Origin: Sphingobacteriaceae bacterium
GTDB taxonomy: Bacteria; Bacteroidota; Bacteroidia; Sphingobacteriales; Sphingobacteriaceae
Assembly (NCBI GenBank): GCA_947460275.1
Contig: CANHHZ010000002.1
Span: 1 to 33,105, forward strand
Length of the DNA: 33,105 nucleotides
Reading direction: 5' to 3'
This document shows, one piece after another, positions 18,037 through 33,105 of the stretch (positions are counted from its first letter, which is position 1; each line of letters begins with the position of its first letter). The notes beneath the pieces were generated by a model. The model made no database searches, was not told where the DNA came from, and saw only the letters and a list, made by a program, of their open reading frames with translations. The position numbers and the translations under genes were made by a program.

Positions 18037-18064
18037 TACTCTTAACTCGTAACCCACAACTCAA
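18037..18064. repeat. Heptad array (AACTCRN, i.e. GAGTTRY on minus) overlapping the pdxA stop codon
   Basis: TACTCTT AACTCGT AACCCAC AACTCAA in perfect 7-bp phase; pdxA TGA (minus) lies at 18061-18063. Confidence 0.75.
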
Positions 18065-19177: not shown

Positions 19178-19198
19178 AGATTTGAGATTTGAGATTTG
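19178..19198. repeat. Three perfect tandem AGATTTG heptads
   Basis: AGATTTG AGATTTG AGATTTG. Confidence 0.85.
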
Positions 19199-21247: not shown

Positions 21248-21721
21248 ATGTCAGAAGTAACGTATTACACCCAAGAAGGATTAGATAAGCTAAAAGAAGA
21301 GCTACATAGGTTAAAAACCGTAGAGCGGGCTGCTATTTCTAAAGCTATTGCAGAAGCAAGAGACAAAGGAGATTTATCTGAAAATGCAGAATATGATGCC
21401 GCCAAAGAAGCGCAGGGAATGCACGAAGCTAAAATATCCAAGCTTGGTGTAGTACTCGCCAATGCCCGCTTAATTGACGAGAGTAAGTTGGACTTAACTA
21501 AAGTTTTAGCTTTGTCGATTGTCAAAATAAAAAACGTAAAAAACGGCGCAACTATGACCTATCAGTTGGTACCGGAGAGCGAAGCAGATTTAAAAACCGG
21601 AAAAATATCTGTAAAATCGCCTATTGCACAAGGTTTATTAGGTAAGTCTGTTGGGGACAAAACCGAAATTCAAGTGCCCGCAGGTAAAATGGAATTTGAA
21701 ATATTAGAAATATCCAGGTGA
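21248..21721 (+). CDS. greA: Transcription elongation factor GreA
   Basis: 157 aa, YYTQEGLDKLKEELHRLK, ARDKGDLSENAEYDAAKEAQG, SPIAQGLLGKSVGDKTEIQVPAG. Confidence 0.97.
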   Translation: MSEVTYYTQEGLDKLKEELHRLKTVERAAISKAIAEARDKGDLSENAEYDAAKEAQGMHEAKISKLGVVLANARLIDESKLDLTKVLALSIVKIKNVKNGATMTYQLVPESEADLKTGKISVKSPIAQGLLGKSVGDKTEIQVPAGKMEFEILEISR

Positions 21722-21786
21722 GTTGTGAGTTGTCAGTTATGAGTTGCGAGCCTGTAACCCCATAACTCGTTACTCTAAACCCTAAA
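21720..21786. repeat. Inverted heptad array (GAGTTGT ... AACTCGT/AACCCTA) starting in the greA stop codon
   Basis: GAGTTGT GAGTTGT CAGTTAT GAGTTGC GAG-CCTGT-AACCCCAT AACTCGT TACTCTA AACCCTA AA; left half GAGTTRY, right half its reverse complement type. Confidence 0.85.
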
Positions 21787-21809
21787 TGGGCTTAACTTAT
21801 AAGTCGACA

Positions 21810-21844
21810 CCTTAAACCCTAAACCTTTAACCTTCAACCTAAAA
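21810..21844. repeat. Heptad array (CCCTAAA/CCTTNAA type)
   Basis: CCTTAAA CCCTAAA CCTTTAA CCTTCAA CCTAAAA in perfect 7-bp phase, ending 2 nt before the HIT ATG. Confidence 0.85.
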
Positions 21845-30416: not shown

Positions 30417-31370
30417 TTAAAATATGGCCTCAGCAATTTTTTTGGTTGGCTCTGGATTGCTCATCGTATAGAAGTGTAAAACGGGTGCGCCTATTTTTAT
30501 CAATTCTTTGCATTGAGCAATCATAAATTCTATTCCTACCTGCTTTACTTGTGCTTCGTCTTTACAATTTTGAATGGCTTCGCTCAAATCTTCGGGCAAA
30601 TCTATATGAAAAACTTTAGGTAAACTTATCAATTGCTTTGACGAAGTTATTGGTTTTAAGCCTGGTATAATTGGCACATTGATTCCGTTTTCTCTACATT
30701 TTTTAACAAACTCTAAATATTTGGTATTGTCAAAAAACATTTGGGTTACGATAAATTCGGCACCCATATCTACTTTTTGCTTTAAGTACTTAAAATCTGT
30801 TTTAAGGTTTGGTGCTTCAAAGTGTTTTTCTGGATATCCAGCAACCCCTACACAAAAATCTGTTTTAAAAGCTTCGTGGTCTTCGTGCAAATATTTACCA
30901 TTGTTCATGTCCATTACTTGCCCTAATAGCTCTGTTGCAAATGCATGGCCGCCGGGTGTTGGTATAAAACTTGAGTCGGCATGGCGGGCATCCCCACGTA
31001 AAACCAATACATTGTCTATCCCCAAAAACTGTAAATCTATCAGTGCATTTTCAGTTTCTTCTTTGGTAAAACCACCACAAATTAAATGGGGAACGGCATC
31101 TACTTTGTATTTATTGATAATTGCTGCACAAATGGCAACAGTTCCGGGTCTTTTACGGTAAGATATTTTTTCGAGTAAACCTGTTTCATGCTGCTTGTAA
31201 ATGTAATCTTCTCGGTGGTAGGTCACATCAATAAACGGTGGATTAAACTCCATTAACGGGTCTATCGCATTGTAAATAGCATCGATACTTTTTCCTTTAA
31301 CAGGAGGTAAAAGCTCGAAAGAAAATAAGGTTTTACCCTTTGCGTTTTTAATATGGTCTGTAATCTTCAT
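30417..31370 (-). CDS. metF: Methylenetetrahydrofolate reductase
   Basis: FSFELLPPVKGKSID, DVTYHRE, DNVLVLRGDARH, GAEFIVTQMFFDNTKYLEFVKKCRENGINVPIIPGLKPI. Confidence 0.97.
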   Translation of the reverse strand: MKITDHIKNAKGKTLFSFELLPPVKGKSIDAIYNAIDPLMEFNPPFIDVTYHREDYIYKQHETGLLEKISYRKRPGTVAICAAIINKYKVDAVPHLICGGFTKEETENALIDLQFLGIDNVLVLRGDARHADSSFIPTPGGHAFATELLGQVMDMNNGKYLHEDHEAFKTDFCVGVAGYPEKHFEAPNLKTDFKYLKQKVDMGAEFIVTQMFFDNTKYLEFVKKCRENGINVPIIPGLKPITSSKQLISLPKVFHIDLPEDLSEAIQNCKDEAQVKQVGIEFMIAQCKELIKIGAPVLHFYTMSNPEPTKKIAEAIF

Positions 31371-31373
31371 ACT

Positions 31374-31408
31374 GGGTTACGTGTTGCGAGTTATCAGTTA
31401 CGAGAACT
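31374..31408 (+). repeat. Heptad array (GAGTTRY type), left flank of the four-helix-bundle gene
   Basis: GGGTTAC GTGTTGC GAGTTAT CAGTTAC GAGAACT in perfect 7-bp phase, ending 3 nt from the metF start codon. Confidence 0.85.
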
Positions 31409-31416
31409 TATATTGC

Positions 31417-31788
31417 CTAATTAGCAAGTTGTTTATAATATTTTATAAATCCGTTTAAGAGTTTTCTTGTTGTTTCTATTTTAACCAAAGATGAACTTAA
31501 AACCTCAGATTTAATATATTTTTGGTCGAAAGCAATGTAAAGTTGTGTTTCAAGCTCATAAATTGAGCCCCTAGCAATAAAGAAAAATTGGATACTATCT
31601 TTAGGATGGTTTCGTCCGCAACCTTCGGCAATATTTGAGGGAATGGATACAGCACATCTTCTCATTTGGCTAACTAATCCAAATATTTCATCCTTTGGAA
31701 ATTCTTTTGTGATGGCATAAGTGTCATTTGCTAAAATTCTAGCTTCTTTCCAAACATCCAAATTAGTATACGATTTTTTCTCTTCCAT
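31417..31788 (-). CDS. Four-helix-bundle protein (S23 / 23S rRNA intervening-sequence protein family)
   Basis: 123 aa with signature sequence LDVWKEARILANDTYAITKEFPKDEIFGLVSQMRRCAVSIPSNIAEGCGR...FFFIARGSIYELETQL. Confidence 0.95.
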   Translation of the reverse strand: MEEKKSYTNLDVWKEARILANDTYAITKEFPKDEIFGLVSQMRRCAVSIPSNIAEGCGRNHPKDSIQFFFIARGSIYELETQLYIAFDQKYIKSEVLSSSLVKIETTRKLLNGFIKYYKQLAN

Positions 31789-31817
31789 TTTTATAGCTAG
31801 CTTTTTTCTATTACACC

Positions 31818-31869
31818 AACCTCACAATCCAGAACCCGTAACCCACAACTCATAACCCATAACTCGCAA
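31818..31869 (-). repeat. Heptad array (GAGTTRY on minus), right flank of the four-helix-bundle gene, inverted relative to the left flank
   Basis: + strand AACCTCAC AATCCAG AACCCGT AACCCAC AACTCAT AACCCAT AACTCGC AA. The minus strand carries TTGCGAGTTAT, identical to 31384-31394 on plus. Confidence 0.88.
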
Positions 31870-31880
31870 GGGGCAGGGGG

Positions 31881-33105
31881 TTAATACGCCAAATTAGGAC
31901 TTAGCCATTTTTCAGCTTCTTCTATACTTATCTTTTTTCTGGTTGCATAATCTTCCACTTGATCTTTGGTAATTTTACCTAAACCAAAATAGCGCGATTG
32001 TGGATGAGCAAAGTAAAAGCCACTTACCGCAGCTGCGGGATACATGGCAAAACTTTCGGTAAGCTTTAATCCAATTTTATTTTCTGCAGCTAAAAGATTA
32101 AACAATGTTGCTTTTTCGGTATGGTCTGGACAGGCAGGATAGCCAGGTGCCGGACGAATACCTGCATATTTTTCTTTAATTAAATCTTCGTTGGTTAAGC
32201 TTTCGTCGTTGGCGTAGCCCCAATATTCTTTACGCACCATTTCATGCATTCGCTCTGCAAAAGCCTCTGCAAGCCTATCGGCCAATGCTTTGGCCATGAT
32301 ACTGTTATAATCGTCGTTATTTTTTTCAAACTTTGCAACCAATTCATCGCAACCAATTCCCGTGGTTACGGCAAAACCGCCAAAGTAGTCTTGAACGCCA
32401 GTTTCTTTTTGTGCTACAAAATCTGCCAGTGCATAATAAGGCTCGCCGTCCATTTTTTCTGCCTGTTGACGAAGCGTGTGGATGGTTGTCAGTCCTGAGT
32501 CTTGAGTCTTGACATCGGACATCGGACTTCCAACTTCTAAAACAATATCATCGCCCACAGCATTTGCAGGCCAAAAACCAATAACGCCTTTGGCGCTTAG
32601 CAATTTTTCGTTAACGATGCGGTTCAATAAAGTTTGTGCATCGTGGTACAGTTTTTTAGCTTCGTCGCCAACAATTTTATCATCAAATATTTTTGGGTAA
32701 CTGCCGTATAATTCCCAAGTATGGAAAAACGGTGTCCAATCTATATAGGGCACAAGTTCTGTAAGTGGGAAATCTTCAAAAACCTTAGTTCCAGTAAAGC
32801 TTGGCTGGGTAATTACTTTATTGATATCAATTTGAAATTTGTCTTTTCTAGCTTCTTCAATAGTTCTGTAACGTTTATCCGAGCGTTTGTTCAAGTGCGT
32901 TTCACGGGCCTTGTCGTACTCGCTTTTAATGGTGTCAATATACGCCGTTCGGGTGTCTTGGTTCATTAAAGTGCTACAAACCGTTACACTACGCGAAGCA
33001 TCTAATACGTGTATTGCTGGGCCCGAATAATTGGGCGCAATTTTTACCGCTGCATGAATGCGAGAAGTGGTGGCGCCACCAATAATTAACGGAACGGTAA
33101 ATCCT
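31881..33105 (-). CDS. metH: Cobalamin-dependent methionine synthase, C-terminal part (5' end outside window)
   Basis: The frame continues past the listed start 32966 to the window end (FTVPLIIGGATTSRIHAAVKIAPNYSGPAIHVLDASRSVTVCSTLMNQDTR...). Activation domain GIRPAPGYPACPDHTEKATLFNLL, KLTESFAMYPAAAVSGFYFAHP. Confidence 0.97.
   Translation of the reverse strand, partial: GFTVPLIIGGATTSRIHAAVKIAPNYSGPAIHVLDASRSVTVCSTLMNQDTRTAYIDTIKSEYDKARETHLNKRSDKRYRTIEEARKDKFQIDINKVITQPSFTGTKVFEDFPLTELVPYIDWTPFFHTWELYGSYPKIFDDKIVGDEAKKLYHDAQTLLNRIVNEKLLSAKGVIGFWPANAVGDDIVLEVGSPMSDVKTQDSGLTTIHTLRQQAEKMDGEPYYALADFVAQKETGVQDYFGGFAVTTGIGCDELVAKFEKNNDDYNSIMAKALADRLAEAFAERMHEMVRKEYWGYANDESLTNEDLIKEKYAGIRPAPGYPACPDHTEKATLFNLLAAENKIGLKLTESFAMYPAAAVSGFYFAHPQSRYFGLGKITKDQVEDYATRKKISIEEAEKWLSPNLAY
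32489..32537 (-). repeat. Seven-unit heptad array (GAAGTCC type) inside the metH reading frame
   Basis: Minus strand GAAGTTG GAAGTCC GATGTCC GATGTCA AGACTCA AGACTCA GGACTGA; translated in frame as EVGSPMSDVKTQDSGL. Confidence 0.9.

Follow-up and report, generated by a model that had tools for sequence, protein, structure and literature searches.

We found that the arrangement of a heptad array, a gene of the S23 family and an inverted heptad array is a real unit, and its recurrence points to a widespread type of gene cassette, bounded by hairpins, that seems not to have been described before. In the window (the whole stretch of 33,105 nucleotides analysed here), the minus strand carries, in this order, metH, a heptad array, the S23 gene, an inverted heptad array and metF. 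Specifically, the 3' part of the methionine synthase gene metH (31881-33105, minus), recognised as an ORF and by tblastn to metH in 57 loci of the genus, is the upstream gene of the junction; a G-rich upstream arm (31821-31869, minus), reading TTGC GAGTTAT GGGTTAT GAGTTGT GGGTTAC GGGTTCT, starts about 11 nt past the metH stop codon; the S23, or four-helix-bundle, ORF of 123 aa (31417-31788, minus) follows; and a downstream inverted arm (31374-31406, plus), reading GGGTTAC GTGTTGC GAGTTAT CAGTTAC GAGAACT and thus C-rich on the coding strand (TAACTGATAACTCG...), ends a few nucleotides short of the start codon of metF (30417-31370, minus), the downstream gene. The position that the original prediction had given for the S23 gene was correct, and profile scores confirmed its identity, the protein being a full-length domain match to PF05635 (129.3 bits, cut-off 33.8) and TIGR02436 (124.9 bits, cut-off 24). 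The opposed arrays, with the 11-mer TTGCGAGTTAT common to both arms (31384-31394, plus; 31859-31869, minus), also held up when judged against 2000 dinucleotide-preserving shuffles: the inverted match between the focal 150-nt flanks scored 13.5 against a null mean of 8.0 (P=0.002), none of the 2000 shuffles reached the score of the intergenic parts alone, and the lag-7 score was 14.2 for the right array (0/2000 shuffles) and 6.5 for the left (P=0.0035). In addition, pairs of GAGTTRY with up to two mismatches occurred 12 times in the window, with 1.8 expected. The focal locus alone is a moderate case, since its down-arm ranks fourth among 113 in the match to its own up-arm, and the decisive support for the unit is its recurrence across the S23 family. 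The 11 nucleotides between the metH stop codon and the first heptad (31870-31880) read CCCCCTGCCCC, which resembles half of a CCCC-type palindrome, as if the cassette had entered or replaced such a repeat.

The nearest named relatives of the S23 protein come from Pedobacter and Daejeonella, indicating that the genus is Pedobacter-like. The window's genome (a 1.97-Mb assembly of 244 contigs, 84% complete) has four S23 loci, one of them frame-broken, and in our sample of the genus, 40 of 61 genomes carried the gene, in 1-18 copies, which gave 113 full-length S23 loci. Across these loci, peaks at lags of 7, 14 and 21 were confined to the 150 nt on either side of S23, with lag-7 values of 0.61 and 0.64 on the two sides versus about 0.43 at other lags. 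Scored against the reverse complement of the down-arm, the up-arm reached 14.5 when both came from one locus and 8.4 when they came from different loci, the maximum over 2000 permutations of arm pairing being 9.2; in the register picked by the alignment, arm identity was 0.81, and it fell to about 0.57 after a slide of 7 nt in either direction and to about 0.28 at other shifts. Strong matched inverted arms were present at 61 of the 113 loci (54% in a sample that, like the others, was made up of best matches to S23 models), versus 6/292 random genes of S23-bearing genomes (2%; P ~1e-33) and 0/310 random genes of S23-less genomes (0%), so that the heptad enrichment proposed as a test of the original prediction was found. 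Likewise, three strong lag-7 arrays were seen in 400 kb of S23-bearing genomes and none in 400 kb of S23-less genomes.

The same pairing of arms was observed well beyond the genus, with own arms scoring 17.8 versus 8.2 for mismatched arms in a class-wide sample of 26 loci, 15.6 versus 8.1 at 62 loci of named Bacteroidota, and 17.7 versus 7.5 around 21 S23 genes of other phyla; in this last sample, again of best matches, 81% of own pairs but 0.2% of mismatched pairs scored at least 14. This sample included genes of Clostridia, Acidobacteria, Cloacimonadota, Gastranaerophilales, Phycisphaerales, Geobacter, Ignavibacteria and SAR324. Within the Bacteroidia, 95 of the 119 genomes sampled contained PF05635/TIGR02436, in up to 23 copies.

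Each arm holds about 4-5 heptads, and the two arms match copy for copy inside a locus while the heptad itself varies between loci (GAGTTRY, TTGAGAT, AGTATCA, AAAGACC, AAGGTNT, GTTTCTG, AGGCATC and others). Arm similarity between copies was 0.26 within a genome and 0.27 between genomes, that is, arms at different junctions resemble one another at background level even within one genome. Hence the arms, read in the original prediction as degenerate terminal inverted repeats, proved to be private to each locus and not a terminal repeat common to the copies. In this the cassettes differ from a MITE or other non-autonomous transposon, as they also do in showing no dispersal of one lineage to many sites. 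The repeats flanking GIY-YIG genes, by comparison, were family-wide and not locus-private (15.5 versus 15.3). We also looked for avoidance of heptad cross-talk inside one genome and saw none.

S23 genes were co-directional with both neighbours at 110/113 loci of the genus, compared with 39/72 control genes of similar size (P=3e-13), and this tendency was weaker outside Bacteroidota (9/17). At the loci of the genus, the upstream arm began at a median of 2 nt past the stop codon of the preceding gene and the downstream arm ended about 5 nt ahead of the following start codon, and the N-terminus of the next protein was often made from the downstream arm. Judging from inspection of the protein termini encoded in the flanking sequence, by which the junctions were named, the genus uses metH-metF, argG-argC, argC-argD, argD-argF, amidohydrolase-agmatine deiminase and folP-diadenylate cyclase, together with thiolase and acyl-CoA dehydrogenase genes and an O-antigen-type ABC transporter pair; beyond the genus, S23 was located at trpD-trpC, at groES-groEL and in split metH genes of flavobacteria. 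The order metH-S23-metF recurred in Pedobacter, Daejeonella, Mucilaginibacter, Flavobacterium and Flagellimonas, whose S23 proteins at this junction share 55-67% identity with that of the window. A motif scan placed none of the fetched S23 loci in rRNA.

On the tree of the 113 S23 proteins, the genomic context changed nine times, with a minimum possible of eight and a shuffled mean of 66.5, and protein pairs more than 50% identical almost always occupied the same junction. Thus, of the mobile unit envisaged in the original prediction, the unit stood and the free mobility was not supported, each lineage staying at its own junction in a manner not expected of a freely jumping MITE family. Free transposition with arms tracking S23 lineages between sites was likewise rejected, protein-arm covariation across contexts being absent (Mantel -0.01). 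Of 58 metH-metF junctions in the genus, 16 were filled by S23; those of one large group of relatives were empty, at about 12-62 bp, and most of the rest contained hairpin repeats of other kinds or remnants of heptads. For example, locus L107 retains a shortened cassette with a C-terminal remnant of S23, L097 has an inverted heptad pair without a gene, and G037 and G038, two close species with near-identical flanks, differ by a clean swap from stop codon to start codon, one having an S23 cassette and the other a hairpin of another heptad with no gene; in addition, different S23 subtypes occupy this junction in sister species. S23 cassettes are therefore lost, shortened or swapped at their own junction between close species. 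The empty sites expected at metH-metF were thus found in many relatives, but without a target-site duplication, and G037/G038 is not a simple empty/filled pair; nor did all relatives carry the gene without arrays. Arm similarity was 0.68 within a locus; between orthologues it was 0.81 where the proteins were more than 70% identical and about 0.33 where they were 40-60% identical, showing that heptads turn over fast between orthologues, yet both arms change together. The S23 orthologues themselves had a median dN/dS of about 0.05, reflecting strong purifying selection. Very close species (L098-L117 and L104-L121) switch between GTCATCCTGAG and CCCCTAAAGGGG hairpins at metH-metF, the junction that is used by S23 cassettes elsewhere.

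We propose, as a tentative reading that we judge nearly as probable as its negation, that these loci are hairpin-bounded single-gene cassettes in operon junctions, with a design like that of the S23-encoding intervening sequences (IVSs) of 23S rRNA. In the operon transcript, the arms would pair over about 30 bp as an imperfect dsRNA stem whose loop contains the S23 ORF, and the stem might be cut or insulated as in an rRNA IVS, by an RNase III type of activity, so that the metH and metF messages would tolerate the insert. An S23 pentamer may bind the heptads of its own locus, perhaps with one heptad to each subunit, and heptad-bound S23 could keep the gene and its two arms united as one unit. 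The architecture of the cassette is observed directly; the RNA processing and the heptad binding by S23 are what we infer from it. The solved S23 relatives 2GSC (XCC0516 of Xanthomonas; PMC4990558) and 2RLD contain five chains each, and together with the 4-5 heptads per arm this leads us to speculate that a pentamer reads about five heptads. Predicted RNA folds paired the arms (at least 15 pairs) in 52/66 cassettes, compared with 24/66 after one arm was swapped, and in the MFE fold of the focal transcript the first arm pairs with the last, the fold as a whole being not unusually stable (z=-1.1). Selection on the RNA strand of the arms was looked for and not seen: the mismatches comprised 86 sense-wobble and 122 antisense-wobble cases, and without a coding-strand preference for G-U the RNA pairing is not demonstrably a target of selection.

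The likeness to the 23S rRNA IVSs of Leptospira and Coxiella (PMC4990558) lies in a single S23-family ORF, a unit of about 430-500 bp with complementary ends that form a stem, a patchy distribution and conserved insertion sites. In the Coxiella IVS, inverted repeats form a 28-bp stem that RNase III cuts, and the S23 ORF lies in its loop; the S23-encoding IVS of 23S rRNA, the closest structure described so far, measures about 430 nt (PMC4990558). Unlike the rRNA elements, the S23 cassettes lie between protein genes of operons, their ends are degenerate, locus-private heptad arrays, and their processing by RNase III is putative; as none of the fetched loci is in rRNA, the tie to true IVS elements rests on the literature. 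The fold family is also that of Avd, the accessory protein of diversity-generating retroelements. Matches to its models were weak (bAvd, 24.2 bits against a cut-off of 40; DivGenRetAVD, 20 bits against a cut-off of 80) and a search of the window's genome, an assembly of 84% completeness, gave no RVT_1; on these grounds a role as an Avd-type accessory is not supported. The cassettes share with MITEs, REP-RAYT and Rickettsia palindromic elements a short intergenic unit with inverted repeats, gene-less versions and in-frame insertion (in metH), but differ in having no common repeat family, no visible target-site duplication and lineages locked to one junction. Confinement of an S23 lineage to one target site across species recalls a homing-type element, from which the cassette differs in that only S23/bAvd-type models match and no nuclease domain is present.

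Heptanucleotide tandem repeats, among which are the cyanobacterial STRRs, resemble the arms in being degenerate, intergenic 7-nt direct repeats with occasional convergent (inverted) pairs. In Beggiatoaceae, cyanobacteria and Bacteroidetes, arrays of TAACTGA have been described just 5' of start codons (PMC4679880); in Xanthomonas the heptad is GGGAATC, and in Nostoc it is GGGGA(T/C)T (PMC4692102). The focal downstream arm, reading GTAACTGATAACTCG, matches the TAACTGA arrays in both sequence and position (PMC4679880). This match, and the occurrence of both an S23 protein and GGGAATC in Xanthomonas, are leads and not tests. In contrast to the S23 arms, which bracket a gene and have a heptad for each locus, the reported repeats use one heptad genome-wide, and S23 is unmentioned in these descriptions (PMC4679880, PMC4692102).

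The 61 genomes of the genus included 21 without S23, whereas 0.7 would be expected under a Poisson distribution, too many for independent random loss. Strong DUF559 matches were present in 27/40 S23-bearing and 0/21 S23-less genomes, solitary GIY-YIG in 38/40 and 2/21, and Y1_Tnp in 36/40 and 2/21. Since the species tree shows only some three changes in S23 presence, leaving two or three independent contrasts, this co-occurrence proves no dependence. Reverse transcriptase showed no association (23/40 S23-bearing versus 13/21 S23-less genomes) and was absent from several S23-rich genomes as well as, in the form of RVT_1, from the window's incomplete genome; a dependence of S23 on reverse transcriptase was rejected on this basis. 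Among genomes G000-G060, the all-or-none distribution of solitary GIY-YIG, DUF559 and Y1_Tnp thus parallels that of S23, although the tree offers few independent changes. RAYT-like Y1_Tnp genes lie about 0.4-3 kb downstream of metF at G007:C20:289683, G054:C5:300107, G032:C7:53608, G043:C358:10274, G001:C14:116399 and G004:C12:41125, and eight near-identical tandem GIY-YIG genes spaced by about 400 bp occupy G059:C1:2860194-2863195.

Other explanations may be weighed against the IVS-like reading. In one, which we consider unlikely, the cassette is a DNA-mobile, non-autonomous element whose arms would be terminal repeats or ssDNA hairpins moved in trans, for example by Y1/HUH RAYT-type transposases, with the solitary arrays as MITE-like derivatives. 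The inward polarity of the inverted ends, the clean G037/G038 swap, the S23 remnant in L107, the different subtypes at metH-metF in sister species, the all-or-none distribution and the accompanying Y1_Tnp would all be accommodated, but the lineages are fixed at one junction, copies lack common arms even in one genome, the target-site duplication looked for was not found, and the Y1_Tnp association amounts to two or three independent contrasts, with G031 and G039 being nearly complete S23-bearing genomes that lack Y1_Tnp. The arms would instead be regulatory sites if S23 were a TRAP-like RNA/DNA-binding ring of the host, setting translation or stability of the neighbouring genes from the stop and start codons that the arms adjoin. 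The patchiness of S23, missing from whole species groups and with unrelated hairpin repeats at the same junction, is unlike that of a needed regulator, and the quick turnover of heptads between orthologues also argues against such a module, leaving it improbable in our estimate even though lineages are tied to given metabolic operons (met, arg, fatty-acid oxidation and agmatine), metH-S23-metF recurs as far as Flavobacterium, Flagellimonas, Daejeonella and Mucilaginibacter, dN/dS is low, the number of heptads per arm is close to the five chains of the solved structures, and TAACTGA heptads near start codons have been proposed as post-transcriptional sites in Beggiatoaceae (PMC4679880).

Polymerase slippage with template switching at junctions might also produce arrays, S23 then being a mere passenger. 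Among the longer tandem repeats of bacteria, those of 7 nt are the most frequent, and slippage has been proposed to cause them (Mrazek 2007, as cited in PMC4679880); gene-less heptad hairpins do exist, and the concerted change of both arms fits correction by template switching. However, strong arms are specific to S23 and recur in many phyla, and strong lag-7 arrays were confined to the S23-bearing 400 kb, making a by-product of this kind highly improbable.

Matched, locus-private inverted heptad arms at core-metabolism junctions in many phyla provide a concrete and testable substrate for S23 proteins, and the cassettes link three puzzles: the rRNA intervening sequences, an Avd-like fold without a retroelement, and the heptanucleotide repeats. 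We found no report in the open-licence literature that joins S23 to heptads. It is conceivable, albeit doubtful, that S23 proteins throughout the bacteria are rings that bind nucleic acids, each reading and maintaining a private 7-nt code in the two inverted arms of its gene, and that such pairs of protein and repeat are the source of the unexplained heptanucleotide repeats in many bacterial genomes, such as the Beggiatoaceae TAACTGA, the Xanthomonas GGGAATC and the cyanobacterial STRRs.

GAGTTRY arrays exceeded the control in nine genomes, all of them S23-bearing (9/40, versus 0/21 S23-less genomes), so array-rich genomes devoid of S23, which would have counted against the original prediction, were not encountered; the window's genome (51 versus 9) and G005 (109 versus 25) were among the highest. 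Most of the excess arrays have no adjacent S23, suggesting that gene-less arrays can multiply or persist. No gene-less heptad hairpin passed the threshold for strong ones in 800 kb of random regions plus the window, and solitary hairpins are thus rare or weaker. In the window, a gene-less inverted GAGTTRY pair (21718-21775, plus) fills the junction between greA and a HIT-family gene, with the greA stop codon TGA within the first heptad; an ACCTTAA array (21809-21844, plus) lies immediately 5' of the start of the HIT-family gene; and a solitary GAGTTRY array (18042-18062, minus) is located at the pdxA stop codon, its TGA being inside TGAGTTG. Three perfect copies of AGATTTG, a heptad type found at other S23 loci of the genus, occupy 19178-19198.

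An inverted heptad hairpin without a gene is also present in frame inside the metH coding sequence (32478-32540, minus). The same site is recognisable in L076, L102, L105, L107, L113 and L119, where the heptad differs or is absent depending on the species. At this metH site, L106 (G003) carries about 430 nt of additional in-frame sequence, located about 1505-1072 nt upstream of metF; the insertion encodes a DUF559-like endonuclease, has CTTCCCAAAGGGAAGGG-type inverted repeats on its flanks and leaves the metH frame open. DUF559 endonuclease domains were similarly observed in frame within host ORFs of about 400 to 1400 aa (G000:C38:5100-5414, G016:C5, G032:C23, G049:C1 and others), their edges being marked by CCCTCTCC..GGAGAGGG palindromes.
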